Source of the DNA: Deferribacter autotrophicus
Lineage (GTDB): Bacteria; Chrysiogenota; Deferribacteres; Deferribacterales; Deferribacteraceae
Assembly: GCF_008362905.1 (NCBI RefSeq)
Contig: NZ_VFJB01000008.1
Span: 1-64,000, forward strand
Direction of reading: 5' to 3'
DNA: 64,000 nt
Positions 1,258 through 25,867 of the stretch are shown piece after piece; the stretch's first letter is position 1; the number at the start of each line of letters is the position of its first letter. The translations under genes and the position numbers were made by a program. The notes beneath the pieces were generated by a model. That model was not told where the DNA came from and did no database searches. It worked only from the letters and a program-made list of their open reading frames with translations.

Positions 1258-2838
1258 TTATTTAATTATATCAAAAATCTTATTTAAGACAAAATCTGGA
1301 TATGCTGTTTTTAATAAATGAAACAAACGAGAGAGATTCTTTAGCTGAAAATAAGTCAATGGATACTTTGCAATTCGATTAATTTCGATTTCTTCTATCG
1401 CTGGTAATAACTTTGCCAGCATATTTTTTCTGGTATTTTCATCAGGAAATTGTAATTGTATTTTAATATTGAATCTATTCTTTAAAGATTCTGGTAAGGA
1501 TTCCAATTTTTCTGTAGTAGCTATGAAAATCCCCCTAAAATTATCCAGTAGTTTTATGAAATTATTTAAAAATCTAATGTGTTTTAGATGTCCAAAAGCT
1601 TTAATTTCTGGTATTTTATGAAAAATGACATCTATGTTATCAAAAAATAAAATAGGTAAATTCTCTAAATCTTTATTAACCGTTTTGTAAAAAGTAAAAA
1701 TCTCGTTTAAAATTTGATAATTATAATTCAAATCAATTCCATCAAATGCTTTGTTATTGATTTCTAAGATTTCTTTGTTTGTAACCTTTGCTAAATAATA
1801 AGCAGTAGTTGTTTTACCAGTTCCACTTTCACCATAAAAAATTATTTTGATTGCAGTTGGAGAACAATTTTCTTTTGCAATTTTTGAGTCAACCTTTTCT
1901 AAAATTGTTTTTACTAAATCTAAATGTTTCTGTATTTCATTATTGAAAAAAACATTTTCAATTATAATTTCTTTACTTTTAAAGGTGATAATATCTGATA
2001 AGAAAAGCATATCTTTTTGAGACAAAAGTTTTGTTATCACAAGCTCATTTATTTTAAATTTTACATCAAATGGGTTTAAATAAGGATATTCTGAATCAAT
2101 CTGAATAATACTATCTCTCACTATTGGCAGTTCTTTTTTTAATATTGCGTAAAGGAATTTTAGCTTTTTGTGTATTGAAAAATTCATTATTTCTGCAAAA
2201 TTCTCGATCATTGGTTCTGGATAATGATAAGCTTCGAAATGAGTGGATAAAATATAAAGAAAAAATATCTGCTCTTCTTGAGAATATTTTGATAATAACT
2301 GATAAATATATAAAGACCTGTCTATTTTTTGCATTATATCATTGATAGATGATAGTAATAGTGAAGCAGATATATTTCCTGATATTCTCTCTTTTAACGG
2401 GTTCGTTAAGGCTTCTAAAACAGTATTATTGTCTTTCAGTTTTTCTGATGAAATTATAGGTTCTTCGCTTATCAATTTTTTTAAGACAGTTGCTTCTACC
2501 TTTATTTTGGGATTCAATATTGTTTCTTGGGTATCAAAAATATGTAATTCATTCGGTTTAGTTGTAATAAAGGTTTTATCTTCTAAGGCAATAATCAGTT
2601 TTAGAAGGCTTAAATATTCTTTTTTGGGCATATTTATTTTATCGCAAAAGTGTTTAATATCAACCCCTTTGATATCATCTATAGTTTTAGCAATTAAAAA
2701 TCCTAATAAATTTGCCTCATCATTATTTATATGAAAATAATCTTGTAAAACTTTTGTGAGTTCAGTGGAACTGTTTAATTTGCCCAATATCTTTTCATCA
2801 TTATAAACTTTTAAAATTTTCATTATCAATTGAGCCAT
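1258..2838 (-). CDS. AAA-family ATPase
   Basis: The protein has 526 residues. The last 200 form a classical AAA module: Walker A GESGTGKTTT near 334-343, a Walker-B-like strand ILFFDNID near 395 in which the usual Glu is Asn, a sensor-1-like strand IFIATTE, and an arginine-finger-like LKNRF. The first 300 residues are helical and unfamiliar. The fold suits ATP-driven remodelling of a protein or nucleic-acid partner; the missing Walker-B Glu suggests weak or altered hydrolysis. Ribosome site aaggggg precedes the ATG at 6 nt. It is divergent from the 3035 gene, and a 13-bp palindrome sits in each half of the shared promoter region. Substrate unknown; a defence role is inferred from neighbours. 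Confidence 0.8.
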   Translation of the reverse strand: MAQLIMKILKVYNDEKILGKLNSSTELTKVLQDYFHINNDEANLLGFLIAKTIDDIKGVDIKHFCDKINMPKKEYLSLLKLIIALEDKTFITTKPNELHIFDTQETILNPKIKVEATVLKKLISEEPIISSEKLKDNNTVLEALTNPLKERISGNISASLLLSSINDIMQKIDRSLYIYQLLSKYSQEEQIFFLYILSTHFEAYHYPEPMIENFAEIMNFSIHKKLKFLYAILKKELPIVRDSIIQIDSEYPYLNPFDVKFKINELVITKLLSQKDMLFLSDIITFKSKEIIIENVFFNNEIQKHLDLVKTILEKVDSKIAKENCSPTAIKIIFYGESGTGKTTTAYYLAKVTNKEILEINNKAFDGIDLNYNYQILNEIFTFYKTVNKDLENLPILFFDNIDVIFHKIPEIKAFGHLKHIRFLNNFIKLLDNFRGIFIATTEKLESLPESLKNRFNIKIQLQFPDENTRKNMLAKLLPAIEEIEINRIAKYPLTYFQLKNLSRLFHLLKTAYPDFVLNKIFDIIK

Positions 2839-4323: not shown

Positions 4324-5244
4324 ATGAACAAACTTTATACAGCACTTAGATTAATAAGATTATTGAATGAACGGAAAAAGATAAATTCCAAAATTGTGGC
4401 TGAAGAATTAGAGGTGAGCATTCGAACTGCTCAAAGATACTTACAAGAGTTACAAGTATTACCTGGTATTACATATGATGAAAATGATAAATCATATAAG
4501 TTATTAGAAAATTATAGATTTGAAGGGACAATTTTATCCCAGACAGAACTGTATTATATTAACGCTTTATTTGATTTTATAAGCAGAGATCTTAATGAAG
4601 TTTCTGCTAAATATATTGAGAATCTGAAAAAGAAAATATTTCACTTAAATAGTCTTACATCACCAGTGAGTTTTTTATATGTGGATAATGTAGAGTTTGA
4701 TAAGATATCACCAGTTTTATCTAAATTAGAACAGGCAATTAAGGACAAACAAAGGATTAAGTTTTTTTATAAAAGATATAATAGGGATTATACAGTGAAT
4801 CCCTATAAAATAGTTTTATCAGAAGGGTTTTGGTATTTAGTAGGTGAACATGATGATGTTTTAAAGAAGTTTTTAGTTGATCAGATTGAGAAGCTTAATT
4901 TATTGGATAGTTTTTTCGTACCAAAAATGGATGTTGATAAGCTTTTAAATTCAGCAAATAATATTTGGTTTTCGGAAGATGAAAAAGATGATGTTGTTAT
5001 AAAAGTTGATAAAATTGTTGCTGATTATTTTAGAAGGAAAAAATGTTTAACAGGACAGATTATAGAATCTGATTTAGGAGATGGACTTGTAGTAAGATTT
5101 ACTGTTTTTAATGATTCTGATTTTATTTATCAAATAATTCGCTGGGCACCGTACATAGAAGTTATTTCACCAAAGAAATATAAAGAAGTCCTGAGAGAAT
5201 ATTTAATAAATTCACTTAGAAAAATATCAGACGACAGAAACTGA
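4324..5244 (+). CDS. HTH-WYL transcriptional regulator
   Basis: The protein has 306 residues. Residues 1-60 are a DeoR/HTH_11-type helix-turn-helix (NSKIVAEELEVSIRTAQRYL). The WYL domain covers about 135-220 and contains the signature GFWYLVGEHD near 172. A C-terminal extension of about 80 residues follows, as in many WYL proteins. WYL regulators often sense nucleic-acid ligands and control defence loci such as BREX and CBASS. Palindromes at 2887, 2975 and 5233 (overlapping its own stop codon) are possible binding sites. It sits between the UDG-fold gene and the AddAB/McrBC-like operon, both on the same strand, so it may control either side. The ribosome site is weak. Confidence 0.85.
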   Translation: MNKLYTALRLIRLLNERKKINSKIVAEELEVSIRTAQRYLQELQVLPGITYDENDKSYKLLENYRFEGTILSQTELYYINALFDFISRDLNEVSAKYIENLKKKIFHLNSLTSPVSFLYVDNVEFDKISPVLSKLEQAIKDKQRIKFFYKRYNRDYTVNPYKIVLSEGFWYLVGEHDDVLKKFLVDQIEKLNLLDSFFVPKMDVDKLLNSANNIWFSEDEKDDVVIKVDKIVADYFRRKKCLTGQIIESDLGDGLVVRFTVFNDSDFIYQIIRWAPYIEVISPKKYKEVLREYLINSLRKISDDRN

Positions 5245-5245
5245 C
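5233..5245. promoter_or_regulatory. Palindromic operator candidate, copy 3
   Basis: GACAGAAACTGAC overlaps the WYL gene stop codon. It matches copy 2 (2975) at 11 of 13 positions and would be a perfect palindrome with one base change. It lies about 210 bp upstream of the promoter candidate of the 5548 operon, so control of that operon from here is less direct. Confidence 0.35.
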
Positions 5246-5291
5246 GCTTATTGGGATTATAATAATTATAAAACTGACATTAGAGGTATTC

Positions 5292-5423
5292 ATGAAGCAT
5301 GATTTACCTTATTTAAAGGGCACATCGCTTTGGTTATCCTTAATTTTAGCTATTAAAGAGTTGTATGGTTTTTCTAATAGAAAATTAGTAGAGGTAGTGA
5401 AGCAAGTTGCAATTAGAATTTAA
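5292..5423 (+). pseudogene. Short ORF, probably a transposase scrap
   Basis: A 43-codon frame with ribosome site agaggt reads LKGTSLWLSLILAIKELYGF, then SNRKLVEVVKQ. The KELYG-x-S-x-R-x-L pattern recalls the N-terminal region of IS5/IS1182-type transposases. It is far too short to act. Family assignment is a guess. It fills most of the 300-base gap between the WYL gene and the next operon. Confidence 0.3.
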
Positions 5424-5454
5424 AATGAAATTTATTAAAACAGCATACGTTATT

Positions 5455-5484
5455 TTAAACTAATAGATGAAATTATGCTATAAT
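5455..5484 (+). promoter_or_regulatory. Promoter candidate for the AddAB/McrBC-like operon
   Basis: TTAAAC (5455-5460), an 18-bp spacer and a perfect TATAAT (5479-5484) lie 63 bp before the first gene. The leader between them is purine-rich (ggtggggcaatgagggtggg). No palindrome overlaps it. Confidence 0.5.
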
Positions 5485-5547
5485 TATTTTTGGTGGGGCA
5501 ATGAGGGTGGGTAACTTTTGTTAAGGGGGATGTAAAGAGGGTTAAAC

Positions 5548-8500
5548 ATGAGTGATAAAGAATCAAATCAATTTATTAATAGCTTATGTATTGAAGCTTC
5601 GGCAGGATCAGGCAAGACTTATCAGCTTGCTAAAAGATTTATTCATTTACTAACATTATACTTACTATCTAAAAAATCAAATGTTAGCAGGAAAACCTGT
5701 GAAGTATCTAATCCAGGAATAGATGATGAATTTTTATATCCTGATTCAATTGGCTCTATTGTTGCGATCACATTTACTAATAAAGCGGCAGCTGAGATGA
5801 AAGAAAGAGTAATACTGTTTTTAAAAAAATTAGCAGGTATTTATAAAGATAGTAAATTTGATAAGACTAATTTTAATGTTGAAGAAAGAGATGCTTTAGC
5901 ATTGTTAGTAGATATAATAAAAAATCATAGTGATTTTAATATCACTACAATTGATTCATTTATGAATAGAATTTTAAAAGCATTTGCAATCGATTTAAAG
6001 ATTTATCCCGATTACGAAATTACATTTGATAGGGATGAAATTTTTCAACTTGCAATAGATGATCTTATTACAGATCCAAGTAATTTTAACGATTTACTCA
6101 ATTTTCTTAATAGTCTTTTATTTTTGGAATATAAGGGTATGAATGCAGAATATATCATTAGGCAAGGAATCGAGAAGTTTAGAGATTTAGATATTCCTGC
6201 CGGTTTATTAACTTTTGATGATTTATGTGACAAATTTCAAGTAACTTCTAAAAATTTGAGAAAAATAAAAACTGAGATAGAAAATAGTATATTAAGTCAC
6301 ATTTCTTACTTTGAACGTGTTATTGAACATAATGTCGGTATCTTTCATGGGAATAAAATAAGAAAATTTAGGAACTTAAGTTTTGATAAATTGATTGAGA
6401 AGTATAGTGATTTTAAAGCTATTGTCGAGGCTGATTCTTTAATAACATTATATCGTAAAGGGAAATCTTTAGATAGTTTAAAAGAAAGTGAATTTATTTC
6501 AAAATTAAAAGTATGTGTTTCAGCTGTTGAGAAATATATTTTACTAAAACATGTGTATGAAACTAACTCTGTAGCTGTTCAGTTAAGAAAGTTTAGGCAG
6601 AAAGAAACAGAGATTAAGTCATTTTTAAATATTGTTGATGGGAGTAGGATAGCTAAAGATGTAAGTGATATTTTACTAAAGGATTCAGGTGTCAGTTATG
6701 CTTTTTGTAGGTTAGGGGAAAGGATATCACATTATTTGATTGACGAGTTTCAGGATACATCGAAGGAACAGTTTGATGCTATATACCACCTAATTGAAAA
6801 TGCCGTTGCAGAAGGTGGTTCATTATTTATAGTTGGTGATAAAAAGCAGGCAATATATGCGTGGAGAGGCGGAGATTATACAATATTTGATGAAGTACTT
6901 GGGAAAAACAACTTGAGAATAGCACAAGATTATATCAACACGAATTACCGTTCTTCTAAAAATGTAGTTGAAGTTAATAATAAGATTTTTGATGTTAACA
7001 ATATCTTTAACAATGATTTTAACGATGTATTAGATAACCAATATAAGAATCTTTTGGCTGATAAGTTAAAACAAGCCATCGAAGATATTTACAAAAAATC
7101 ATCTCAAAACAACTATATTGATTCAGAGGGGTATGTAGAAATTAATTTAAGAGAAATGAATGATGACAGCAGTGAATCTATTGAAGAAGATTTTTATCAT
7201 CATGAATTTAAAAATATTCTAAGCAAGCTACTTTACGACAAAAAAATTAAACCATCTGATATAATGATTTTATTAAGAAGTAAGAAGAATATTGATAAAG
7301 TGGTAGAGTGGGTAAGAAAGGATTTTCCAGAGATTCCGTTTATTACAGAAGATTCTCTTGTGCTATTAAATAATTTTGAAATTAAAAAAATTCTTTTGTT
7401 ATTGTCAGCCGTTATTTATTCAAATGATGATAGTTACAAATCTGCTTTGAAGATAGTAGGCATAGAACCAGCTATTGTTAGTGAAATAGAGGAAGATGTA
7501 AAACTATTATCACCATATGAAGTTTTTTGTAAATTAATGAGTTTGGATATTTTTGATGTAGATAACAATAGATTGTATTTTGATAGGTTATTAGAAGAAG
7601 TTTTGAAATTGACCGAGTCCCAAAAGAGTTTGGAAGATATATTAGAGTATTTTTATAATAATAAAGATATAACAATTACTATTAGCGAGGATTTGGATGC
7701 CTTAAAGATAATGACAATCCATAAAGCAAAAGGACTTGAAAGTCATACAGTAATTATTCCCTTTTATGACTGGAGTCTATACGATACTAAAAATATAACA
7801 ATTTATGATAGTGTAAACATTTCGTCTTTGACACAAAATGACGAATATGTGTTTGTTAAAATCAGCGGTGATTTAAAAGATATTTTACCGGATGCTAAGG
7901 AAAAATATTTTGAGCACGTAAAGACAAAATTTATAGAGTCTCTTAATCTTATGTATGTCGCCAACACAAGAGCAAAAGAGAATTTATTTATACTAGGCGC
8001 TTACAAACTTACAAAAGAAGGTAAATACGGTAAAACAATTACTGCGGCAAATTTATTACATATGATTTTAAATAAAATAAAAGAGAGTGATAACCTTGAA
8101 TATCCTTACATAATTGGAGATTTGAAAAGTGAATGTCAACAAGATAAGTCAAAAGAAGTTCATCATAACTATAAATTGAAAATAAATTCTACTTTTAGGG
8201 AATTTTTAAAAGTTTATCCAGAAAATTACTTTTTAAATCTTACTCCTACTGAGAAATTATTGGGTGAGTTATATCACATGGCTATGTCATATATTGGAAA
8301 GATAGAAGAAAATGATGATTTAGATAGTATAATAAAAAACGCTTGTGACAAAGCATCTAAAATTCTTAAATATAAGGATGAGATTGTGATAGATTTAATG
8401 AAAAGAACATTAGTTGATTTAAGGAATTATTATTATGAAATAGATGATTATTGGAATGAAAAAGAACTTGTTGATAGACAAGGGAGAATTTTCAGACTCG

Positions 8501-8664
8501 ATAGGTTAGTAAAAAAAGGTGATTGTTATTACATAATTGATTTTAAAACAGGAGAAAAAGAACATAAGCATGAATCACAGCTAAAAGATTATATGAAGTT
8601 TTTTAATAATGCTAAAGGTGTTATTTATTATACAGAAACAGGAGAGATTGTAAGTGTCAGTTAA
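5548..8664 (+). CDS. AddA/RecB-like UvrD-family helicase-nuclease
   Basis: The 1038 residues carry the full SF1A helicase set in order: Walker A ASAGSGKT near 17-24, motif Ia ITFTNKAAAEMK near 75, motif II LIDEFQDTS near 397, motif III VGDKKQAIYAWRGGD near 428, motif IV NYRSS near 470, motif V MTIHKAKGLE near 721, motif VI LMYVANTRAKE near 802. The C terminus is a RecB-type PD-(D/E)XK nuclease: a His in ELYHMA, FRLDRL, IIDFKTG near 995 and QLKDYM. Known relatives unwind and degrade DNA ends. It starts a four-gene operon and overlaps the next gene by 11 bases. It could be the cell's own AddA, but tight coupling to McrC/McrB-like genes in an accessory region argues for a defence role. Confidence 0.9.
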   Translation: MSDKESNQFINSLCIEASAGSGKTYQLAKRFIHLLTLYLLSKKSNVSRKTCEVSNPGIDDEFLYPDSIGSIVAITFTNKAAAEMKERVILFLKKLAGIYKDSKFDKTNFNVEERDALALLVDIIKNHSDFNITTIDSFMNRILKAFAIDLKIYPDYEITFDRDEIFQLAIDDLITDPSNFNDLLNFLNSLLFLEYKGMNAEYIIRQGIEKFRDLDIPAGLLTFDDLCDKFQVTSKNLRKIKTEIENSILSHISYFERVIEHNVGIFHGNKIRKFRNLSFDKLIEKYSDFKAIVEADSLITLYRKGKSLDSLKESEFISKLKVCVSAVEKYILLKHVYETNSVAVQLRKFRQKETEIKSFLNIVDGSRIAKDVSDILLKDSGVSYAFCRLGERISHYLIDEFQDTSKEQFDAIYHLIENAVAEGGSLFIVGDKKQAIYAWRGGDYTIFDEVLGKNNLRIAQDYINTNYRSSKNVVEVNNKIFDVNNIFNNDFNDVLDNQYKNLLADKLKQAIEDIYKKSSQNNYIDSEGYVEINLREMNDDSSESIEEDFYHHEFKNILSKLLYDKKIKPSDIMILLRSKKNIDKVVEWVRKDFPEIPFITEDSLVLLNNFEIKKILLLLSAVIYSNDDSYKSALKIVGIEPAIVSEIEEDVKLLSPYEVFCKLMSLDIFDVDNNRLYFDRLLEEVLKLTESQKSLEDILEYFYNNKDITITISEDLDALKIMTIHKAKGLESHTVIIPFYDWSLYDTKNITIYDSVNISSLTQNDEYVFVKISGDLKDILPDAKEKYFEHVKTKFIESLNLMYVANTRAKENLFILGAYKLTKEGKYGKTITAANLLHMILNKIKESDNLEYPYIIGDLKSECQQDKSKEVHHNYKLKINSTFREFLKVYPENYFLNLTPTEKLLGELYHMAMSYIGKIEENDDLDSIIKNACDKASKILKYKDEIVIDLMKRTLVDLRNYYYEIDDYWNEKELVDRQGRIFRLDRLVKKGDCYYIIDFKTGEKEHKHESQLKDYMKFFNNAKGVIYYTETGEIVSVS

Positions 8665-11482
8665 AGTATATAAAATTGATATAGGTTTTAATTTTGTTCA
8701 TTATATTGCATTACAATTAGTTAAATTAAAGAACGAATATAGAAAAATAATTTTTATTTCAGCAAATAGGCGTCCTATTAGATTTATTGAAAAATCGATA
8801 GATTTGAATGCTGCTCTTAATGTTGATTTTTATACAATAGAAGATTTTGTTAAAGATATTGTAATCAATTATTCTGATGAAATACCTACCATACATAGTA
8901 AACTGGAAAGGGAAATATATTTTTTAGAGTTGATACAGAAAATTCCTGCACTTTACGAAAAGCTGGGTGGAAATGATGTAAAAGTTTTTCCATGGGCTAA
9001 GAGGTTATCAAAGTTGTTTGATGAAATTGATAAACAACTATTAGGTGATAAACTAAAAGATTTCTACTATGTGGAGGCATTGGATGAGGCTAAAGAGATA
9101 TTAGAAAATTTAAAAAGTTTATATAGCAAATATGAAGAAGATTATAGTAATTTTACATACAATGGTAATATTTTTAAAAGAGCATCAGATTTAACTTCTA
9201 CAGATAAGTTTCATGATGAATTCAGAGATACTTTGTTTATTTTTAGCGGGCTGATTTATTTATCAAATTCTGAGTTAAAAATGATGAAAAATATTTCTGA
9301 AACTGCCGATATTCACTTTTATATCCAAACAGATTTGCAAGAAAGGGAAGATGAAACACTTGGTTTTGATACGTTTAAAATAGTAGATAATCTCATAATA
9401 AAATTAAACAAATATGTTAAGAGTGATATTGAAGAAATTAAAGATGATAAAAATACAGTAGAGACTGAATTTTATTTTTATCAGTTTCCTGATACTCATT
9501 CTGAGGCAGCTGAAATATTTAAGATAGTTAGAGATAAATATAGAGCTTTTAATGATAAAAAATCACCTGAAAAATTAGCAGTGATTTTGCCTGATGCAAG
9601 GACACTTTTTCCATTGTTGGCTTATTTTGATAAAAAGGATGATTTGCATATAAATATATCAATGGGATATCCCTTTGGTAATACAGATGTGGGGATGTTT
9701 TTAGATTCTTTATTCCATGTGCTCATTGATATGGATAGAAAACATAAAACTACAAGCAGTTATATTGTGGACTCAAAACTGCTGCTTAGGTTATTAAATT
9801 CAAATATTCTCACTTTATTTAAAAATGAGATTGTAAGTAGTGCAAACAAATTAAAAGAACAGCTATTTGAGGAACAATCTTCAACTTACAAGTTTGAAGA
9901 AAGTGAAGATTTTTTCAGATTATTATTAATGAAATTTATAGAAGTTAAAGACATTTACACATTACGAAGGTCTTTTTTAAACTTATTTAATCAGTTTGAT
10001 AATAATATCTTACAAAAAGACAAATACAAGTTTACAACACAGATATTGCAGTATTTTTATAATGAAGTAGTTGAAAATCTAAATTTATTGAATTCCGAAA
10101 GAAAAGTTGATGTGCTTTTTTCTTATCATTTAATCAAAGAAATAGTTAATGATATGACAATACCGTTTGAAGGGCATCCTCTTGAAGGTATTCAGATAAT
10201 GGGGATGCTTGAAGCTCGTTTATTATCCTTTGAAAATATAATTATAGCAGATGTAAATGAGGGGATTCTTCCTGCCGGAGATAAGATAGATCCTTTACTT
10301 CCTGAACAAATAAAAGTTGAGCTTGGGCTTACTTCATTTAAAGAAAAAGAGATGTTGATGAGATATAATTTTTTCAGGTTGGTTTATTCTGCTAAAAATG
10401 TTTATGTGATGTATAAATCGGGTGCTACCGGTGTAGATAAGTATATAAAAAGCAGATTCGTAGAGCAGTTAATTTTATTGAATGAATTAAAAACTAAAAA
10501 AGAGTTTCAAATATATACCCATGAGTTAGCATTATCCAAGTTTGAAAATATTGACAATAAAATTGTAAAGGATGGAGAAATTAAAGAGCATTTTAAAAAG
10601 TTATTTAAAGAAGGTAATATTTCACCTTCTAGAATAAATTATTATATGCAGTGTCCTTATGCCTATTATTTAAAATATATAAAGGGAGTTAAAGGTAAAA
10701 TAAAGTTAGATGAAGATTTTGAAGCAGATAAACTTGGAACAATAGTTCATAAATTTTTTGAGGAAAATTTTAAAAATTATTTGGGTAAAAGAGTAACAAA
10801 AGAAGACTTAGAACATATTTGTGAATCTATAAAGCGAGAAATAGATAATTTGCCTGACTATAAATATGTTGATAAAGATGGAAGCGTTAAAAGATTTTTA
10901 AAAAAATTAGATAATTTTAAAATAAAAGCGTTAAGACTCATATTAAAATATAGAATAGAAACTTACTTTGAAAATATTCTCTATAATCAAAGTGATTTTA
11001 CGCTATTAGCATTAGAAAAAGAACTTAAATCTGATTTATTAAAACTGCATGGATTTGCTGATAGAATAGATGAAATTGAAAATGGTAAGATAAGAGTAAT
11101 AGATTATAAAACAGGCTCAAGTAAACTTATGCCATACAAAAATAAGGTAGCTAATTTAATAGAAAACAACTCTGATATTTTAAATAATTATGATGATAAA
11201 GTGTTGTGTGAGGTAAGAAAGTGTATAAATTCTGTTCAAATGCCTTGCTATATTCTAATGGCAAAGGAAAAATTCAATGCTGAAGTTTTAGCTGAAATAC
11301 ATCATATTGGAGCATCTAAGAGGCATGAAATAATTGAAAAATTATCAGACGAACATATCGAAGATTATAAAAAACTTATAGAATATATCCTAAATCATAT
11401 GAAAAATTCTGAATATATATATGCTTTACCTGATAAACATTGTGAGTATTGTGATTATAGTCATTTTTGCAGGTATGTTTAA
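8654..11482 (+). CDS. AddB-like protein with PD-(D/E)XK nuclease and iron-sulfur motif
   Basis: This 942-residue protein lacks a proper Walker A (inactivated SF1-like N-terminal region). Its C terminus is a clear AddB-type nuclease: SPSRINYYMQCPYAYYLKY near 657, LGTIVHKFFEE, LHGFADRIDE, VIDYKTG near 815, and a final CEYCDYSHFC. The Cys in MQCPY plus those last three form the 4Fe-4S staple of AddB. At 942 residues it is shorter than Bacillus AddB (about 1150). The GTG start at 8654 overlaps the helicase gene by 11 bases, and the stop shares one base with the next start, so all are likely translated in coupled fashion. Partner of the upstream helicase. Confidence 0.85.
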   Translation: MSVKVYKIDIGFNFVHYIALQLVKLKNEYRKIIFISANRRPIRFIEKSIDLNAALNVDFYTIEDFVKDIVINYSDEIPTIHSKLEREIYFLELIQKIPALYEKLGGNDVKVFPWAKRLSKLFDEIDKQLLGDKLKDFYYVEALDEAKEILENLKSLYSKYEEDYSNFTYNGNIFKRASDLTSTDKFHDEFRDTLFIFSGLIYLSNSELKMMKNISETADIHFYIQTDLQEREDETLGFDTFKIVDNLIIKLNKYVKSDIEEIKDDKNTVETEFYFYQFPDTHSEAAEIFKIVRDKYRAFNDKKSPEKLAVILPDARTLFPLLAYFDKKDDLHINISMGYPFGNTDVGMFLDSLFHVLIDMDRKHKTTSSYIVDSKLLLRLLNSNILTLFKNEIVSSANKLKEQLFEEQSSTYKFEESEDFFRLLLMKFIEVKDIYTLRRSFLNLFNQFDNNILQKDKYKFTTQILQYFYNEVVENLNLLNSERKVDVLFSYHLIKEIVNDMTIPFEGHPLEGIQIMGMLEARLLSFENIIIADVNEGILPAGDKIDPLLPEQIKVELGLTSFKEKEMLMRYNFFRLVYSAKNVYVMYKSGATGVDKYIKSRFVEQLILLNELKTKKEFQIYTHELALSKFENIDNKIVKDGEIKEHFKKLFKEGNISPSRINYYMQCPYAYYLKYIKGVKGKIKLDEDFEADKLGTIVHKFFEENFKNYLGKRVTKEDLEHICESIKREIDNLPDYKYVDKDGSVKRFLKKLDNFKIKALRLILKYRIETYFENILYNQSDFTLLALEKELKSDLLKLHGFADRIDEIENGKIRVIDYKTGSSKLMPYKNKVANLIENNSDILNNYDDKVLCEVRKCINSVQMPCYILMAKEKFNAEVLAEIHHIGASKRHEIIEKLSDEHIEDYKKLIEYILNHMKNSEYIYALPDKHCEYCDYSHFCRYV

Positions 11483-12912
11483 TGAGTGAAGTTAAAATAA
11501 TCGACAATGAAATTATTAGCTTAAAAGATGATAAACAATTAAGTGAAGTAGTTAATAATCACTTATTTGAATATTTAAATGTTGAAGAAAAAATCTCATA
11601 TAATAAGGATGTTTTGATAGTTAATAATTTTTGTGGTTATTTGACAGAAAGTATATTGATAATCCCTAGAAAAATCAAAAATCTCTTAATAAAGGAAGAA
11701 TTGAATAATTCTGATGACATTAAGAAATCTTACGATGAGTTTTTTTCTAAATTTTTAAATTATATTTTACGGGAAATTTCTAAAGGAGATATAATATACA
11801 CTCTGTCTTTGGCAGATTTTAGTGTCAATGAAAGTGAACCTATTAATAGTGATATTTTAAAACTATCGGTTTTATTGAATAAGAGAGATCAGCTATTATC
11901 ATCAGTTCAATTAATCTTATCAAACCCTCATAGAAAACTCACAGAATATGAAGAGTATAAACCGTTATCAGAGGTTAGTAACATAGATGCCAACATATTA
12001 ATAAATATAACTCAGAATCCTCAATGCTATATAGAGACAGATGAAGGTATTTTAGAAATAAACAACAAAAAGTATTCACCTACAACAGTATTACAATACT
12101 CAAATGAAGAAAGTTTTGATACATTGGAAAACAGATTTGTAAAAAAATTCCTTAAAGAATTATCTGCCATCCTAAAAGATTTGTATAGCAAATTTTTACT
12201 GAAAGAGTTAGAAGATATGAACAATGAAATAGAAAAAGCTTTAAACTCATATATATTTTCAGAAATTGGTGAATTAAATATATTTCCATCCTATTCTCAG
12301 GTATTACAGAAAAAGTCAGGTTATAGAGAGTTATTCCAAATATATAGATTGTTGCATCTTTCTTTTGTCCCAGAGTTTTTTAAAGATTTAGATATGGCTT
12401 TTTCTTTAAAAGATATGGCGACTCTCTGGGAATATTATGTTTTGGTTGAATTGTTAAAAGAGTTAAAAAAAGAATTTGGAGAGTATAAAGTTAAATTGGA
12501 TTTTGTGGAAAAAAATCAAGGAAAAACAATATACGAAGAAGCTAAATTTAAATTTGAAAATGGTTTAATCTTAAATTTCCAGTCTACAAAATATTCATAT
12601 TCAGGGTTACCATTTAGACCTGATTTTTTAATAGAGTTTAAGGATAAAAACAAAAAAGTAGTGTTTGATGCAAAATTTAGAATTTTTGAAAATAATAAAA
12701 AAGATATTCTCCAAAATATGCATTATTACAAAGATGGATTAAAATTAAATTCAGCTACCGCTGTGTGTTTGGGGAATAAAAATAAAGGAAAATTTTGGCA
12801 AATCAATGAGAATGATAAAAAACCTGAAGAATTAAATAGTTTTATAGATTGTTTAGAAAAAGCTTTAAATGGAATTGGATATATAGATTTAAAATTAGAG
12901 ATAAGGAGTTAA
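11482..12912 (+). CDS. mcrC: McrC-like nuclease subunit (DUF2357 + PD-(D/E)XK)
   Basis: I choose ATG 11482 (476 residues), whose A is the last base of the previous TAA; a TTG at 11467 in the same frame is less likely. The middle has DTLENRFVKKFLKEL, the ENRFV block typical of DUF2357. The C-terminal third holds the McrC catalytic core: FRPDFLIE near 378 (the Asp) and VFDAKFR near 394 (D-x-K). In McrBC-type systems this subunit cuts DNA when driven by the McrB translocase. The next gene, the McrB-like motor, starts one base after the stop. The N-terminal 150 residues are unfamiliar and may touch the motor ring. Confidence 0.85.
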   Translation: MSEVKIIDNEIISLKDDKQLSEVVNNHLFEYLNVEEKISYNKDVLIVNNFCGYLTESILIIPRKIKNLLIKEELNNSDDIKKSYDEFFSKFLNYILREISKGDIIYTLSLADFSVNESEPINSDILKLSVLLNKRDQLLSSVQLILSNPHRKLTEYEEYKPLSEVSNIDANILINITQNPQCYIETDEGILEINNKKYSPTTVLQYSNEESFDTLENRFVKKFLKELSAILKDLYSKFLLKELEDMNNEIEKALNSYIFSEIGELNIFPSYSQVLQKKSGYRELFQIYRLLHLSFVPEFFKDLDMAFSLKDMATLWEYYVLVELLKELKKEFGEYKVKLDFVEKNQGKTIYEEAKFKFENGLILNFQSTKYSYSGLPFRPDFLIEFKDKNKKVVFDAKFRIFENNKKDILQNMHYYKDGLKLNSATAVCLGNKNKGKFWQINENDKKPEELNSFIDCLEKALNGIGYIDLKLEIRS

Positions 12913-12913
12913 A

Positions 12914-15454
12914 ATGAAAAACTTAATAGGGTTGTATTTTGTAGACAACCAGCAGTTAGAAGAATATACGCGAAAGATGATTGACTCTAAATGTAGTATT
13001 TTTTGGTGGCATCAATTACCTGCAGGTAGAGAGGAAATAATTAAAAATTTAGAAGATTTGTTAAATAAACAAGGATACTTTTATATATATGCTATAAAAA
13101 ACAAAACTCTATATGCAAGATATAAAATTGAAGGATTTTTAATTTTAAAAGACCCATTTAGTGATGATTTACCGGAAGATTGGAAAGATTGTGATAAAGC
13201 CAGCGAATGGTTTGATAAAGAAAAAAGAAAAAAGATGTTAGAAAAATTTATAGAAGATGATGGAGAGAAAAAAGGAAAGCCAAAAATTTTGTTTAAAGTC
13301 TCACAAGCAGAAATAATAAACAAGCCTATAAATTTAAAGGGGGTAAGAGCCCACATTCATCCATTATATAAGGAGGATATAGATAAAATGAATGGAGATC
13401 CATTATATGAAGAGGATACAAGTAAGATGAATAGTGAATATATAAATGTGATGGGAAAAACTTGTCATTTTAATTCATTAAAATTAGAAGAATATGTTAT
13501 AAATTCCTTTTACAATGCACTCAAAACTAAAGGTTTTGTTATTCTTGCTGGGCTTTCTGGAACAGGAAAAACAAAAATCTTTGAAGAGTTTGTTAAATGT
13601 TTCGATACAAAGTCTTCAATGCTACAACGTATCTTTAAAGAAGTTATGAAAAAAATTGCGAAAAACATACCTTATTTTGAAAAAACAATTAAAGAATTTC
13701 AAGAAAAATATACAGAAGACTATTTAAAAAATATGAAGATTGTGGATTGGCATGATACTAGGCAGGGGTTGGTATATGACTTAGAACATGGTAAATTCAA
13801 AGATTTGGGAGGTATTGCCGGAGGAAGTGCACATAAATTTTCAATATATAAATCTACAAGTAGTAATTGTACTAAAAAATTTAAGAATGAAAACGGATAT
13901 TGTTATGATCCAGAATTAGGAGATTCATTACAGGAAGCTTTTAATAATTTGAAAAAATATTTAATAAAACTAAGAGATTTAGCTTTGAATTCAAAAATTG
14001 AGGAAATTGAAAAACTACCTTTTCCTAAACATGTAGTTAAATGGAAATTAGCATATTTATGGAATCCAAGTTTAATTTTGAATATTTTTAGATTGGAAGA
14101 TCTTATTAATATTGCAAAATTTTTCTGTTTAGAGTGTAAGGAGTTTACAGACTGTCAAAAGAAATTGAAGAATGAAAAAAACAAATATTTAAAAGAAGTT
14201 CATGACTTAATATTTACTAATTTTATTTACGAACCATTAGTTAAAGAGTTATGGGAAAAAGGTAAATTTAAGAATTGTTTTAATCTTGATGATTTGTTTT
14301 CAATATTAAATCATATTTTTATATCTATTCGTCCGGATTTTAGAGATAGTAAATCATTACTCGGGTATTACAATCCTTTGACTAAAAGTTATGAAAAAAC
14401 TAAACTTTTAGAGTTTATAATAAATGCTGTTAAAAACTATACAATGAATGGGAAGAAAGCAGATCCATTTTTTATCCTATTTGATGAAATGAACTTAGCA
14501 AGAGTAGAGTATTATTTTGCTGATTTTTTGAGTGTTTTGGAGTGTAGAAGATTTAAAGATATAAATGAATCTAAAGAAAACAAATCTTTTGTTAAATTTT
14601 TAGAAAAAATAGGTTTTGCTGAAGAAAAACTCAGTGAAAATAATTATAAATTTACATCTCAAAGTATTAAACTTCATAATAAAGAAATAAATGATATTCC
14701 CCAAGAGCTTTTTTTACCTCCAAATCTTTATTTTGTTGGAACTGTAAATATAGATGAAACAACTCATATGTTTTCACCAAAAGTTTTGGATAGAGCTTTC
14801 ACTATTGAGTTTGATGTTGGAAGTTTTAATGAATACATAAAAGATAATATTAAAAATAGTAAAAATAATACCGTAGCAAAAGTGGAAAAAGAAGATTTTA
14901 CAAATAATTATAGTGAAATTGACACTGAACTAAAAGAAAAATTTAAAGAAGATTTTATAAACAATGGAGAATTTGCTGTTATTGATAAAGGAAAAATAAA
15001 AGAATTTTGTACAGAAAATAAAAAATATACTTCTAAACTAGAAGAAATCAATAATTTACTAAGGAAATATAATTTGCATTTTGGGTATCGTGTTTTTGAT
15101 GAAATAATAATGTTTTTATATAATTGTAAAAACTCAAAATATTTTAGCTATAAAGATTTAAATGAGGCATTTGACCTTGCTATAAAAATGAAAATTTTAC
15201 CTAAGTTTCACGGCACAAGGCAACAACTGGAAAAACCTATATTAGAATTAATTAATGTATTAGAAACTGAAAAAAGTAAAGAAATGGATTTTGGAAAGAT
15301 AAAGTCGATTCCTTTGATTAAGGATGAAGGAATAGAGGTTGAACTTGATGATGGAAAAACAATAAATATCAAGACTCCGTATAAGTATACGGTTAAGAAG
15401 TTGCTTGAAATATTATATAGAGCAAAAACTACTGGATATGCAGGGTTTATGTAG
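12914..15454 (+). CDS. mcrB: McrB-like AAA+ GTPase with an N-terminal reader-like domain
   Basis: The protein has 846 residues. Residues 1-145 look like a compact alpha/beta reader (WWHQLPAG, GYFYIYAIKNKTLYARYKI, ILFKVSQAEII) that may be a PUA/EVE-type modified-base binder; this is inference. The motor has Walker A AGLSGTGKTK near 212, the McrB-family Walker B FILFDEMNLARVEYYF near 517 and GTVNIDETTHMFSPKVLDRA near 609 (NxxD guanine-recognition region plus arginine finger). An insert of about 250 residues separates Walker A from B. Ribosome site aaggag lies 5 nt upstream. A 13-residue tandem duplication at 150-175 lies between reader and motor, with an internal start site (see findings). Works with the McrC-like subunit. 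Confidence 0.85.
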   Translation: MKNLIGLYFVDNQQLEEYTRKMIDSKCSIFWWHQLPAGREEIIKNLEDLLNKQGYFYIYAIKNKTLYARYKIEGFLILKDPFSDDLPEDWKDCDKASEWFDKEKRKKMLEKFIEDDGEKKGKPKILFKVSQAEIINKPINLKGVRAHIHPLYKEDIDKMNGDPLYEEDTSKMNSEYINVMGKTCHFNSLKLEEYVINSFYNALKTKGFVILAGLSGTGKTKIFEEFVKCFDTKSSMLQRIFKEVMKKIAKNIPYFEKTIKEFQEKYTEDYLKNMKIVDWHDTRQGLVYDLEHGKFKDLGGIAGGSAHKFSIYKSTSSNCTKKFKNENGYCYDPELGDSLQEAFNNLKKYLIKLRDLALNSKIEEIEKLPFPKHVVKWKLAYLWNPSLILNIFRLEDLINIAKFFCLECKEFTDCQKKLKNEKNKYLKEVHDLIFTNFIYEPLVKELWEKGKFKNCFNLDDLFSILNHIFISIRPDFRDSKSLLGYYNPLTKSYEKTKLLEFIINAVKNYTMNGKKADPFFILFDEMNLARVEYYFADFLSVLECRRFKDINESKENKSFVKFLEKIGFAEEKLSENNYKFTSQSIKLHNKEINDIPQELFLPPNLYFVGTVNIDETTHMFSPKVLDRAFTIEFDVGSFNEYIKDNIKNSKNNTVAKVEKEDFTNNYSEIDTELKEKFKEDFINNGEFAVIDKGKIKEFCTENKKYTSKLEEINNLLRKYNLHFGYRVFDEIIMFLYNCKNSKYFSYKDLNEAFDLAIKMKILPKFHGTRQQLEKPILELINVLETEKSKEMDFGKIKSIPLIKDEGIEVELDDGKTINIKTPYKYTVKKLLEILYRAKTTGYAGFM
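13361..13438 (+). repeat. 39-bp tandem duplication inside the mcrB-like gene
   Basis: Two adjacent 39-bp units (13361-13399 and 13400-13438) encode PLYKEDIDKMNGD and PLYEEDTSKMNSE. Eight of 13 residues are identical. The first unit contains AAGGAGG (13370-13376) and an in-frame ATG at 13388; the second has a weaker version with ATG 13427. It lies in the linker between the N-terminal domain and the motor. Confidence 0.8.
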
Positions 15455-15580: not shown

Positions 15581-16135
15581 ATGATTCGACTCACTTTAGA
15601 TGATGTGAACAGAGTAGTTGAGAATATAGATAATACTGTATTATATAAATATACATATTTACAAGAAAAACTTATGATAACTGATGTAACAATTGATCTT
15701 GAATTTCAAAGAAAATTTAATGGTTTTTATCGAGTAAGAAGAAATAAGGTCTGGCAGTTGCATTTTTATAATATACTTGAACAAAATAAGCATAATAAAA
15801 AAGTTTCATTTGCTGATATTTTATTTGACTTGAAAGAAAAAACAGGGAAGTTAGAAGCCTCGTTTGCTAGCAAACTTGTAGCGACAATAAATCCTGATAT
15901 GCCAGTTATTGATAAATTTGTTTTGAAAAATACCAATCTTAAGTTACCAAATTATAAATCAAATGAAAGAGCAAAAAAGATAATAATCTTGTATGAGCAA
16001 TTGCAACAGGTTGTTAATAATTTTTTATCAACTGGAATAGGGGAATTTTTGGTAGAAAAGTTTCAAAGAAAATTTCTGAATTTGAATATATCTAAAGTAA
16101 AGATGTTAGATTTTGTGTTATGGCAAATTCGTTAA
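15581..16135 (+). CDS. Helical hypothetical protein
   Basis: A 184-residue, mostly helical protein with ribosome site ggag 9 nt before the ATG. The block ASFASKLVATINPDMPVIDK followed by FVLKN, and the ending KVKMLDFVLWQ, look like a conserved family of accessory-region proteins. The arrangement vaguely recalls helical DNA-glycosylase-like folds, but I see no helix-hairpin-helix Gly-rich loop, so I do not assign a function. It has its own promoter 90 bp upstream and is the first gene after the McrBC-like operon, which makes an accessory role there possible. Confidence 0.6.
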   Translation: MIRLTLDDVNRVVENIDNTVLYKYTYLQEKLMITDVTIDLEFQRKFNGFYRVRRNKVWQLHFYNILEQNKHNKKVSFADILFDLKEKTGKLEASFASKLVATINPDMPVIDKFVLKNTNLKLPNYKSNERAKKIIILYEQLQQVVNNFLSTGIGEFLVEKFQRKFLNLNISKVKMLDFVLWQIR

Positions 16136-22609: not shown

Positions 22610-25600
22610 ATGACAATAATTTTACCAAAATTAGAAAAAATATACTGGAAAAAAAACGGGATTAAAAATATAGTTTCACAATTAATAATCTCTGAAAAAG
22701 AAGTAGATTATAGTTTTGTTTCAAGTCATCGCGCTTTTACAATAATTGAAGCTAATGAAACACAATATTGTTTGGTAAGAAATGAGAATAACATACCTGA
22801 AGGTTACGATTATGTTATAAAAACTAATCAAAAAGCAACTGAAGAAAGGTTAATTTCTGGTTCTATTGAGCTAATTAAATGGTTAAAACATCCACTAGAT
22901 AAAAAGTATTCAACTGACGAAATTGTTAGATCTTGGAACAATAATTTCTATTTTATTGAAGAGAATTTGAAAGAAGGGATTAATGGATTAAGAGATCCAC
23001 AAATAGCTGCATTATATTCCATCTTAAGTCATTTCAAAGTTTCTAACGATATTGGAACTGTTGTAATGCCAACAGGTACTGGTAAAACTGAAGTAATGTT
23101 GGCTTCTTTAGTTGCAAGGAAAATTAATAAGTTATTAGTTGTTGTTCCTTTCGATGCTTTAAGAGAACAAACCTTTAAAAAATTCTATTCATTAGGATTA
23201 TTAAAACAGTTTAAATTACTTTCAAACAATTCTTTATTCCCAAGAGTGGGATTATGGAAGCAAAATTTTGCAGACATCGATGAATTAAAAGATTTTATTG
23301 ATAATTGTAATGTTGTTGTTACTACTATGGCGATCCTCTCAAAAAACACGCTTGAGACTCTGCAAATGTTATCAAAGGATTTTGAATATGTTTTTTTTGA
23401 CGAAGCTCATCACATCGAATCAAATTTGTGGAAAAAAGTAAGAGACTCTTTCAAAAGAGAACAAATATTGCAGTTTACTGCAACACCTTTTAGGAATGAC
23501 AGAAAAAAATTAGAAGGAAAAATAATTTTTAATTTTCCCTTAAAAAAAGCGCAAGAGCAAGGATATTTCAAACAGATAAAATTCATACCGGTAAGGGAAT
23601 ATGATTTAATAAAAGGCGATAGGTTAATTGCCGAAAAAGCAGTTGAGCAATTACGATATGATTTAGAAAACGGATACAACCACATTCTTATGGCAAGGTG
23701 TGAAAACAAAAAAAGAGCGGAAGAAATATTTCAAATTTATCATAAAAATTATAGTGATTTAAATCCTGTTTTAATTCACTCTTCTATTCCTGGAAAAAAA
23801 GAAATAACAGAATCTATTATTCATGGAAAGCATAAAATAATTGTTGCTGTAAATATGTTAGGGGAAGGTTTTGATTTGCCGCAACTAAAAATAGCTGCTT
23901 TTCATGACATAAGAAAAAGTTTACCAGTTACATTGCAATTTGCGGGTAGATTTACAAGAACTTCTATTGACAAACAACTTGGTACCGCAACATTTATTGC
24001 AAATTTAGCAGACTCAAATGTGGAAGATGAGTTAAGTGAATTATATGCACAAGATTCTGATTGGAATTTGTTATTATCAACTTTAAGTTCCGGTAAAATT
24101 GATGAACAGATTGATTTTGACGAATTTATTCGCGGATTTCAACATATTGACGATTCAAAAATCCCTTTTCAGAATATAAGATTTGCATTAAGTACTGTTG
24201 TTTATAAAAATCATACTTCAACTTTTAATTTAAAAAGATTCAAAGAAGGAATAAATCACTATGATGATCTTGAATATAAATTTTTTGATTATAACCCAGC
24301 ATCAAAAACATTAGTCTTTATTAGTGCAGAACGCAATGAAATAGAGTGGGTTAACTATAAAGATATTTATGGATTAAATTGGAAATTAATGGTCTTATAT
24401 TATGATACAACCAACAATTTATTATTTATTCATAGCTCAGATAAGTCAAGCTTATATAAAAATATTGCTAAAGCGGTTTTGGGAAATGGCTTTGAGTTAA
24501 TATCTGGTTTAAATACTTATAGAGTATATTCCGACATAAAGAGAATTTCTTTACAAAATGTTGGATTGAAAGAATTTTTAAATAGAAAAATAAGATTTAG
24601 AATGATGGTGGGGACGGATATTGAAGAAGCGCTATCTATTGCTGAACAACAAAGGGGGCAAAAAGCATTTACTTTTGGTTCTGGGTATGAAGATGGTAAT
24701 AAAATAACATTAGGTTGTTCATACAAGGGTAGAATATGGAGTTACTTAAGGGGTAATTTAAAAGAGTTTATTTCTTGGTGTGATAATTTAGGGAAAAAAC
24801 TTATCGATGAATCGATAAATCCTAATCAAATTTTGAAGGAGACATTAATACCTAAAATTGTAAATGAAATTCCTAAAAAATATCCTACTCATATTGATTG
24901 GAACGAAAGTATTTATTTTGAGCATAAAATTTTTATATTAATTAATGATAATGAATTTTATCTATCGGATTGCTCTTTAAACCTTGTAAATCCTTCTGAT
25001 AATGGGGAGATAAACTTCGAAATAGAAACACCATTGATTAAAGTACAATTTAAAAAAGAATTATTTTTAAATAGGGACGCTGAGACAGAAAATCAATTTG
25101 CTGATTATAAAATATCAAAGATAAGTTCTGATTCTGTTATTATAAAAATTGGTTCAAGAGAAATTGATATTGTTGATTATTTTAATGAAAATCCCCCCCA
25201 AGTTTGGTTTGCTGACGGTTCATCTCTTACGGGGTTTGAATATGTTGAATTAAAACAAACAATCATACCTTATCCAAATGAAAGATTGATATCTTGGAAT
25301 TGGAAAGGGGTAGATTTAAGTAAAGAATCTCAAGGTATAGATCCAATTCAAACTGATTCAATACAATATAAAGTCATTCAACATCTTAAACAGAGTAATT
25401 TTGACATAATTTATGATGATGATGGTTCAGGGGAAATAGCTGATGTTATAGCAATTAAAGAGAATGATAAAGAAATAAAGGTTCAATTTTATCACATTAA
25501 GTATGCAAAAGGCGGAACAATTAGCACACGTATAGATAACTTTTATGAAGTTTGTGGTCAAGCACAAAAATCAGTAAATTGGAAACATAAAAAAGGGTTA

Positions 25601-25867
25601 GAATTTTTTGAACACTTATTACGCAGAAAAACGAAAGTTAAACAAGGGTTTGAAAAAAGCCGAATTGAAAAAGGGACAGAAGAAGATTTAGAAAGATTAA
25701 TGTTAATAGCAAAAAATAAAAAAACTATGGAATTTGAGATTTTTATAGTTCAACCAGGATTATCAAAACAAAATACTTCTGAGAATATTATGACTTTATT
25801 GGGTGTTACTGAAAACTACTTAAAAGAAGTTGGCGGTATTGATTTAAAAGTAATTGTAAATGAATAA
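22610..25867 (+). CDS. SF2 DEAH-box helicase with nuclease-like C terminus
   Basis: The 1085 residues hold a full SF2 core: Walker A MPTGTGKTE near 151-159, DEAH at 264-267, motif III LQFTATPFRND near 285, and helicase half 2 with GEGFDLPQ near 419 and QFAGRFTRT near 444 (motif VI). The fold is of the restriction type III/Rad25-like group. A long C-terminal part follows, in which DDGSGEIADVIAI near 934-946 and KVQFYHIKYAKGG near 956 have the spacing of a D-x-E/Q-x-K nuclease core. It stands alone, with several hundred bases free on each side. A single-protein restriction or anti-phage activity is a reasonable inference. The ribosome site (agatagg) is modest. Confidence 0.8.
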   Translation: MTIILPKLEKIYWKKNGIKNIVSQLIISEKEVDYSFVSSHRAFTIIEANETQYCLVRNENNIPEGYDYVIKTNQKATEERLISGSIELIKWLKHPLDKKYSTDEIVRSWNNNFYFIEENLKEGINGLRDPQIAALYSILSHFKVSNDIGTVVMPTGTGKTEVMLASLVARKINKLLVVVPFDALREQTFKKFYSLGLLKQFKLLSNNSLFPRVGLWKQNFADIDELKDFIDNCNVVVTTMAILSKNTLETLQMLSKDFEYVFFDEAHHIESNLWKKVRDSFKREQILQFTATPFRNDRKKLEGKIIFNFPLKKAQEQGYFKQIKFIPVREYDLIKGDRLIAEKAVEQLRYDLENGYNHILMARCENKKRAEEIFQIYHKNYSDLNPVLIHSSIPGKKEITESIIHGKHKIIVAVNMLGEGFDLPQLKIAAFHDIRKSLPVTLQFAGRFTRTSIDKQLGTATFIANLADSNVEDELSELYAQDSDWNLLLSTLSSGKIDEQIDFDEFIRGFQHIDDSKIPFQNIRFALSTVVYKNHTSTFNLKRFKEGINHYDDLEYKFFDYNPASKTLVFISAERNEIEWVNYKDIYGLNWKLMVLYYDTTNNLLFIHSSDKSSLYKNIAKAVLGNGFELISGLNTYRVYSDIKRISLQNVGLKEFLNRKIRFRMMVGTDIEEALSIAEQQRGQKAFTFGSGYEDGNKITLGCSYKGRIWSYLRGNLKEFISWCDNLGKKLIDESINPNQILKETLIPKIVNEIPKKYPTHIDWNESIYFEHKIFILINDNEFYLSDCSLNLVNPSDNGEINFEIETPLIKVQFKKELFLNRDAETENQFADYKISKISSDSVIIKIGSREIDIVDYFNENPPQVWFADGSSLTGFEYVELKQTIIPYPNERLISWNWKGVDLSKESQGIDPIQTDSIQYKVIQHLKQSNFDIIYDDDGSGEIADVIAIKENDKEIKVQFYHIKYAKGGTISTRIDNFYEVCGQAQKSVNWKHKKGLEFFEHLLRRKTKVKQGFEKSRIEKGTEEDLERLMLIAKNKKTMEFEIFIVQPGLSKQNTSENIMTLLGVTENYLKEVGGIDLKVIVNE

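Follow-up and report, generated by a model that had tools for sequence, protein, structure and literature searches.

An accessory AddAB-like helicase-nuclease and a thermophile-type McrCB pair joined in one gene run in a defence island of Deferribacter autotrophicus

We analyzed the first 64 kb of contig NZ_VFJB01000008.1 in the 2.54 Mb genome of the deep-branching, thermophilic bacterium Deferribacter autotrophicus (64,000 nucleotides, hereafter the window), where four consecutive genes on the + strand encode an AddA-like, an AddB-like, an McrC-like, and an McrB-like protein. Our preferred reading, to which we give a probability of about 0.6, is that this operon consists of an accessory AddAB and a thermophile-type McrCB with an NxD motif (type IV restriction), two independently mobile modules that were joined once, in one lineage, in a defence island headed by a WYL regulator. 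The two pairs live apart everywhere else in our sample, and thus, as far as gene neighborhoods can tell, two known modules most likely landed together rather than forming a new joint system.

Gene organization of the operon

The AddA-like gene (5548..8664) overlaps the AddB-like gene (8654..11482) by 11 nt, and AddB starts with a GTG at 8654. The AddB-like and McrC-like (11482..12912) genes overlap by 1 nt in a TAATG at 11480-11484. The McrC ORF was called from a TTG at 11467, a start that is purely mechanical, and the TAATG start was taken instead. A gap of 1 nt separates McrC from the McrB-like gene (12914..15454). An earlier sequence-only reading of this DNA had named the four genes, their families, the overlaps of 11 and 1, and the gap of 1, and all of these were borne out by the ORFs, by matches in Pfam, NCBIfam, and PADLOC, and by motifs. 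Since overlaps within each pair (AddA/AddB and McrC/McrB) recur in relatives, the AddB/McrC junction is the only new one. The perfect TAATG overlap suggests that the two genes are translationally coupled and selected for co-expression rather than merely close together, and this junction is the single piece of evidence for a coupling between AddAB and McrBC.

The same reading had placed the genes in one operon behind one good promoter. The tight junctions favor the operon, and the four genes are likely to be co-transcribed. The promoter fared less well, as promoter-like matches in the region were not above those in shuffled sequence in a consensus scan (93 vs 91.4 +/- 8.9). The promoter meant was probably an extended -10-like element, TATGCTATAAT (5474..5484, + strand), which by motif reading is an unproven candidate for the operon promoter. 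Downstream, a 184-aa protein is encoded on the same strand (15581..16135, +), 126 nt after McrB. It had no match in Pfam, NCBIfam, or PADLOC, and its membership in the operon is uncertain.

The defence island

A WYL-domain transcriptional regulator (4324..5244, + strand; Pfam WYL 1.1e-12, WCX 9.6e-9) is encoded 303 nt upstream of addA and is likely to be the regulator of the island or operon. WYL regulators of the BrxR family are recognized as markers of defence islands (PMC9122601). Three other genomes of the phylum have relatives of this WYL protein (54%, 37%, and 38% identity), located in accessory regions with differing gene contexts. A search for a dyad operator for WYL near AddA gave weak inverted repeats only. 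Between the WYL gene and addA (window 5245-5547) is a short ORF, MKHDLPYLKGTSLWLSLILAIKELYGFSNRKLVEVVKQVAIRI, that reads like an unconfirmed transposase fragment and had no match among the fetched loci.

Two other genes of the island lie nearby. An AAA protein (window 1258-2838) has a weak score to the anti-phage IetA/IteA ATPase, and a related segment is also in the island of a genus-mate. A 1085-aa helicase (ResIII/DEAD; window 22610-25867) has weak scores to models of Dnd phosphorothioation restriction and RadD and is probably another defence gene of the island.

The AddA-like and AddB-like proteins

The AddA-like protein is an AddA/RecB-like SF1 helicase (PF00580 1.9e-35; UvrD_C 7e-15) whose C terminus carries a PD-(D/E)XK-like nuclease motif, and this combination of helicase motifs (ASAGSGKT-17, DEFQDTS-399) and nuclease motif (DFKTG-998), seen by Pfam and by inspection, is that of AddA. 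It matched an NCBIfam RecB-like helicase model (PRK13909 group) with 1.9e-75, at a score of 254.7, which is below the cut-off of 650. The AddB-like protein is a PDDEXK nuclease (PF12705, PDDEXK_1, 3.1e-32) with the motif DYKTG-817 and four cysteines of the Fe-S type (C667, C930, C933, and C939, invariant among seven aligned sequences), as in AddB. Its match to TIGR02786 addB (addB_alphas; 7.8e-29) had a score of 100.4, also below the cut-off (486.5). Motif inspection found no Walker A in this protein. The stand-alone homologs of another genus of the phylum, genus g8, also score below the curated AddA and AddB cut-offs, so the models are unsuited to this lineage, and we therefore call the pair AddAB-like.

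The McrC-like and McrB-like proteins

The McrC-like protein has a DUF2357 domain (PF09823 2.1e-41) and a PD-(D/E)XK nuclease (PF04411, PDDEXK_7, 2.1e-5). RPDF-379 and FDAKF-395 form an intact PD-DxK motif that is conserved in all seven aligned sequences. The McrB-like protein is an AAA+ motor with an NxD-type GTPase motif, an N-terminal PUA-like (ASCH/EVE/YTH) domain assigned from weak fold matches, and an insert of ~250 aa after Walker A, as judged from motifs and alignment. It has no Pfam family name and was named only by the PADLOC candidate PDC-M26A (2.4e-42). Its Walker A (GLSGTGKT-213), Walker B (FDEMNLA-523), and NxD variant (VNIDE-611) are invariant in seven aligned McrBs. Thus, by motif inspection the catalytic motifs are intact in all four proteins of the operon.

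Foldseek matched the N-terminal region of McrB to ASCH, YTH, and the McrB NTD 6n0s at TM ~0.3-0.45, from a low-confidence model (mean pLDDT 52.5). The predicted model of the ~250-aa motor insert (mean pLDDT 44) gave no usable structure, and neither McrB nor McrC had a sequence match to any solved structure. A McrB/McrC pair on a Thermococcus barophilus plasmid is a full-length relative, with 42% and 35% aligned identity.

The two pairs in other genomes

From the AddB side, we took the closest relatives of AddB in GTDB genomes (80 loci) together with the loci of genera g8 and g2 of the window's phylum, which gave 85 loci with an AddB match. McrB or McrC was found in none of the 85 (71 of them with at least 3 kb downstream) by BLAST and profile HMMs with working positive controls. 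AddAB without McrBC occurs in genus g8 (50-51% identity), in genus g2 (36-38%), and in Desulfurellales/Hippea. In genus g8, an HD-domain gene lies 1 nt after AddB, in place of McrC. Two apparent candidates for linkage were rejected. In a Desulfurellales locus where the contig ends after AddB, McrC is absent and the end reads in translation like an IstB-type transposase gene, and the neighbors of the AddB genes on Bacteroides and Parabacteroides plasmids are not McrBC. Scans of viral contigs for carriers confirmed no relative.

From the McrC side, ~520 genomes were searched, 136 of a second bacterial phylum and a further 385 that include the window's phylum, where DUF2357 was found in 2 of 51 genomes. 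A profile of the window and Thermococcus McrCs gave six matches in the 136 genomes. Five are full-length, with 51-56% identity, and lie beside McrB, and the sixth is a match at a contig end. Apart from the window's own McrC, the further 385 genomes gave weak matches to the profile only. Profile HMMs with positive controls found no AddA or AddB in the fetched flanks of the eight McrB/McrC loci, the flanks being shorter for two of the six second-phylum matches, which are on contigs of 10-11 kb. Two second-phylum genomes have both AddB and McrC, and there the genes are ~446 and ~552 kb apart. One stand-alone McrB of the second phylum has 46% identity to the N-terminal specificity region of the window McrB, which indicates that the McrCB module travels whole.

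Some of these relatives have features of their own. In one locus (L170:5081-5904), McrC and McrB are separated by a DUF6036/AbiEii-like nucleotidyltransferase gene and one for a 96-aa partner, and these two genes look like a toxin-antitoxin pair inserted in the McrCB operon. Another relative has only a homolog of the small partner in this position (L171:11589-11894). The McrB gene of a third (L172:12224-13916) is apparently split by a frameshift into ORFs of 106 and 469 aa.

The sequence-only reading had proposed that the four genes are a single cut-and-destroy system, in which McrBC would make breaks in modified DNA of an invader and a dedicated AddAB would degrade it from the resulting ends. 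We consider such a dedicated system unlikely. The tight operon with the 1-nt AddB/McrC overlap, the setting in a defence island, and the intact nuclease and motor motifs all speak for it. However, the adjacency of the four families, whose conservation that reading suggested checking, was seen only in the present genome among the sampled genomes. It is absent from the 85 AddB loci and the 8 McrB/McrC loci, the two pairs being unlinked by ~450-550 kb where they co-occur in two genomes, and the existence of McrCB relatives without AddAB indicates that this McrBC family does not need AddAB. The survey covered ~520 genomes for McrC and, for AddB, 80 GTDB loci and the window's phylum, so it could have missed a four-gene unit in a small clade.

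A second end-processing enzyme in the same genome

The genome encodes recC, recB, and recD together on another contig, with Pfam matches to Exonuc_V_gamma and RecC_C in RecC, UvrD and PDDEXK in RecB, and RecD_N in RecD. The check for a second addAB or recBCD was therefore positive. The adjacency to McrBC is unique in the sample and the nearest AddAB homologs lie in loci without McrBC, but the third point that the sequence-only reading had set against its own proposal, that the pair would be the only copy, does not hold. A second end-degrading enzyme beside a restriction pair needs a reason in a genome that already has RecBCD, and this is a further argument for the dedicated system.

The genus-mate G001 has a RecC match and no AddB match, and genera g8 and g2 have AddB matches and no RecC match. 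The GC3 of the four operon genes is 18.7-20.7%, like that of their neighbors in the AT-rich, WYL-headed island, compared with ~29% for recB and recC. Given the RecBCD elsewhere in the genome, the genus-mate without AddB, the low GC3, and the island setting with WYL, the window AddAB is accessory.

The alternative offered by the sequence-only reading, that a housekeeping addAB happens to sit here, is weakened by the recC-recB-recD set and by the genus-mate with RecC and without AddB. In its fuller form, an ancestral AddAB was kept, perhaps relocated, for general double-strand-break repair with no defence role, and an McrCB cassette was inserted downstream by chance. In the AddA tree the window pair lies next to genus g8, in which no enzyme of this class other than AddAB was detected. 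The AddB tree gives the same placement, with the difference that a Desulfurellales row is included in the same group of five rows, and the 11-nt AddA/AddB overlap recurs in relatives. On the other hand, the genus-mate lacks AddAB while both genomes have RecBCD, and the pair is part of an accessory island that is AT-rich and has a WYL regulator. Moreover, since the trees group the window AddAB with both g8 and the Desulfurellales of another phylum, transfer is likely. We thus regard a retained housekeeping pair as improbable.

Another explanation is that AddAB is a defence element of the island in its own right, a backup against phages that inhibit RecBCD, and that McrBC is an unrelated neighbor. 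RecBCD is encoded in the same genome, and inhibitors from phages, such as Gam, block RecBCD once restriction has cut the DNA (PMC12707154). Genome G010 of the same phylum has RecC plus a divergent AddB-AddA pair (L080:230-6488) ~4 kb from a homolog of the WYL protein (L079:14961-15875). This may be a parallel example of accessory helicase-nucleases in such islands. However, the arrangement was seen in two genomes only, and we know of no phage of these hosts that acts against RecBCD, so we give this explanation little weight.

Possible mechanism and significance

In the family of McrBC-type enzymes, McrC acts as the nuclease, and McrB carries an N-terminal reader and works as a translocating GTPase (PMC11090510, PMC12707154). 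In our preferred reading, the N-terminal PUA-like domain of McrB would probably recognize modified DNA of an invader, McrB would assemble and translocate with GTP, and McrC would cut. Cutting of modified DNA by McrBC is the leading possibility, as the N-terminal fold matches are consistent with the PUA-like modified-base readers known in thermophile McrBs. In E. coli, RecBCD degrades the ends after a restriction cut (PMC12707154), so either the window AddAB or the resident chromosomal RecBCD, whichever end-processing enzyme is present, could finish the degradation. Co-transcription would give the two modules shared expression, perhaps under the control of WYL, and the parts would not require each other. 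The earlier proposal that McrBC cuts and AddAB eats from the ends is thus biochemically plausible, but a dedicated partnership is not needed for it. None of the tested evidence requires a role for the window AddAB in McrBC action. Such a partnership is possible, but the comparisons between genomes give it no support.

The active sites are all intact and there is no sign of decay of a redundant copy, which counts against our preferred reading. The proteins are members of known families, and it is doubtful that they make up a joint system. A bolder and rather speculative form of that idea is that, in this lineage, the type IV restriction motor and a dedicated AddAB shredder have merged into a single co-translated unit for cutting and destroying DNA, a safeguard against phages that disable RecBCD, and that such four-gene units may also exist in thermophiles outside the sample. 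Should the pairing be functional, it would be a natural example of a restriction enzyme that brings along its own enzyme for end degradation, and it would test whether cleavage or later degradation kills the invading DNA. Even as a chance junction, the locus indicates that a genome with RecBCD has kept an intact AddAB as well, within a defence island, and that a thermophile NxD-type McrCB module is common to two phyla.

Comparison with known systems

Like AddAB and RecBCD helicase-nucleases, the first pair has a UvrD-type AddA with a nuclease motif, a four-cysteine PDDEXK AddB, and overlapping genes. It differs from them in scores under the curated cut-offs, in an AddB without a detected Walker A, and in its place in the defence island of a RecBCD-bearing genome.

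The second pair resembles the NxD-motif branch of McrBC type IV restriction (Bell et al. 2024, PMC11090510). It shares a McrC with DUF2357 and PD-DxK, an AAA+ motor with Walker A/B and a shortened NxD followed by E, a variable N-terminal specificity domain, and an insert in the motor domain. The order is McrC then McrB, unlike in that branch and as in the relatives of the present pair. No NxD-type McrB has been characterized so far according to PMC11090510, and the terms AddA, AddB, RecB, and UvrD are absent from its main text. In the thermophile McrBs that carry PUA-like readers (Thermococcus gammatolerans YTH-McrB and the Staphylothermus marinus McrB NTD, PDB 6n0s), the N-terminal region is similar in size to the present one, which gave weak fold matches to ASCH, YTH, and 6n0s. 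Unlike them, the present McrB has no sequence match to solved structures, and its model is of low confidence.

Both the present McrB and the Thermococcus McrB match PDC-M26A, but no further component of the PADLOC candidate PDC-M26 was detected here, and no mention of PDC-M26 was found in the literature examined. CoCoNuT systems have a long coiled-coil McrB and RNA-linked domains, and those that have lost the McrC nuclease have HEPN or another nuclease as partner. No HEPN match was found by Pfam among the neighboring genes scanned. The NxD motif is common to CoCoNuT and the present McrB, whereas the McrC nuclease of the present pair is intact.
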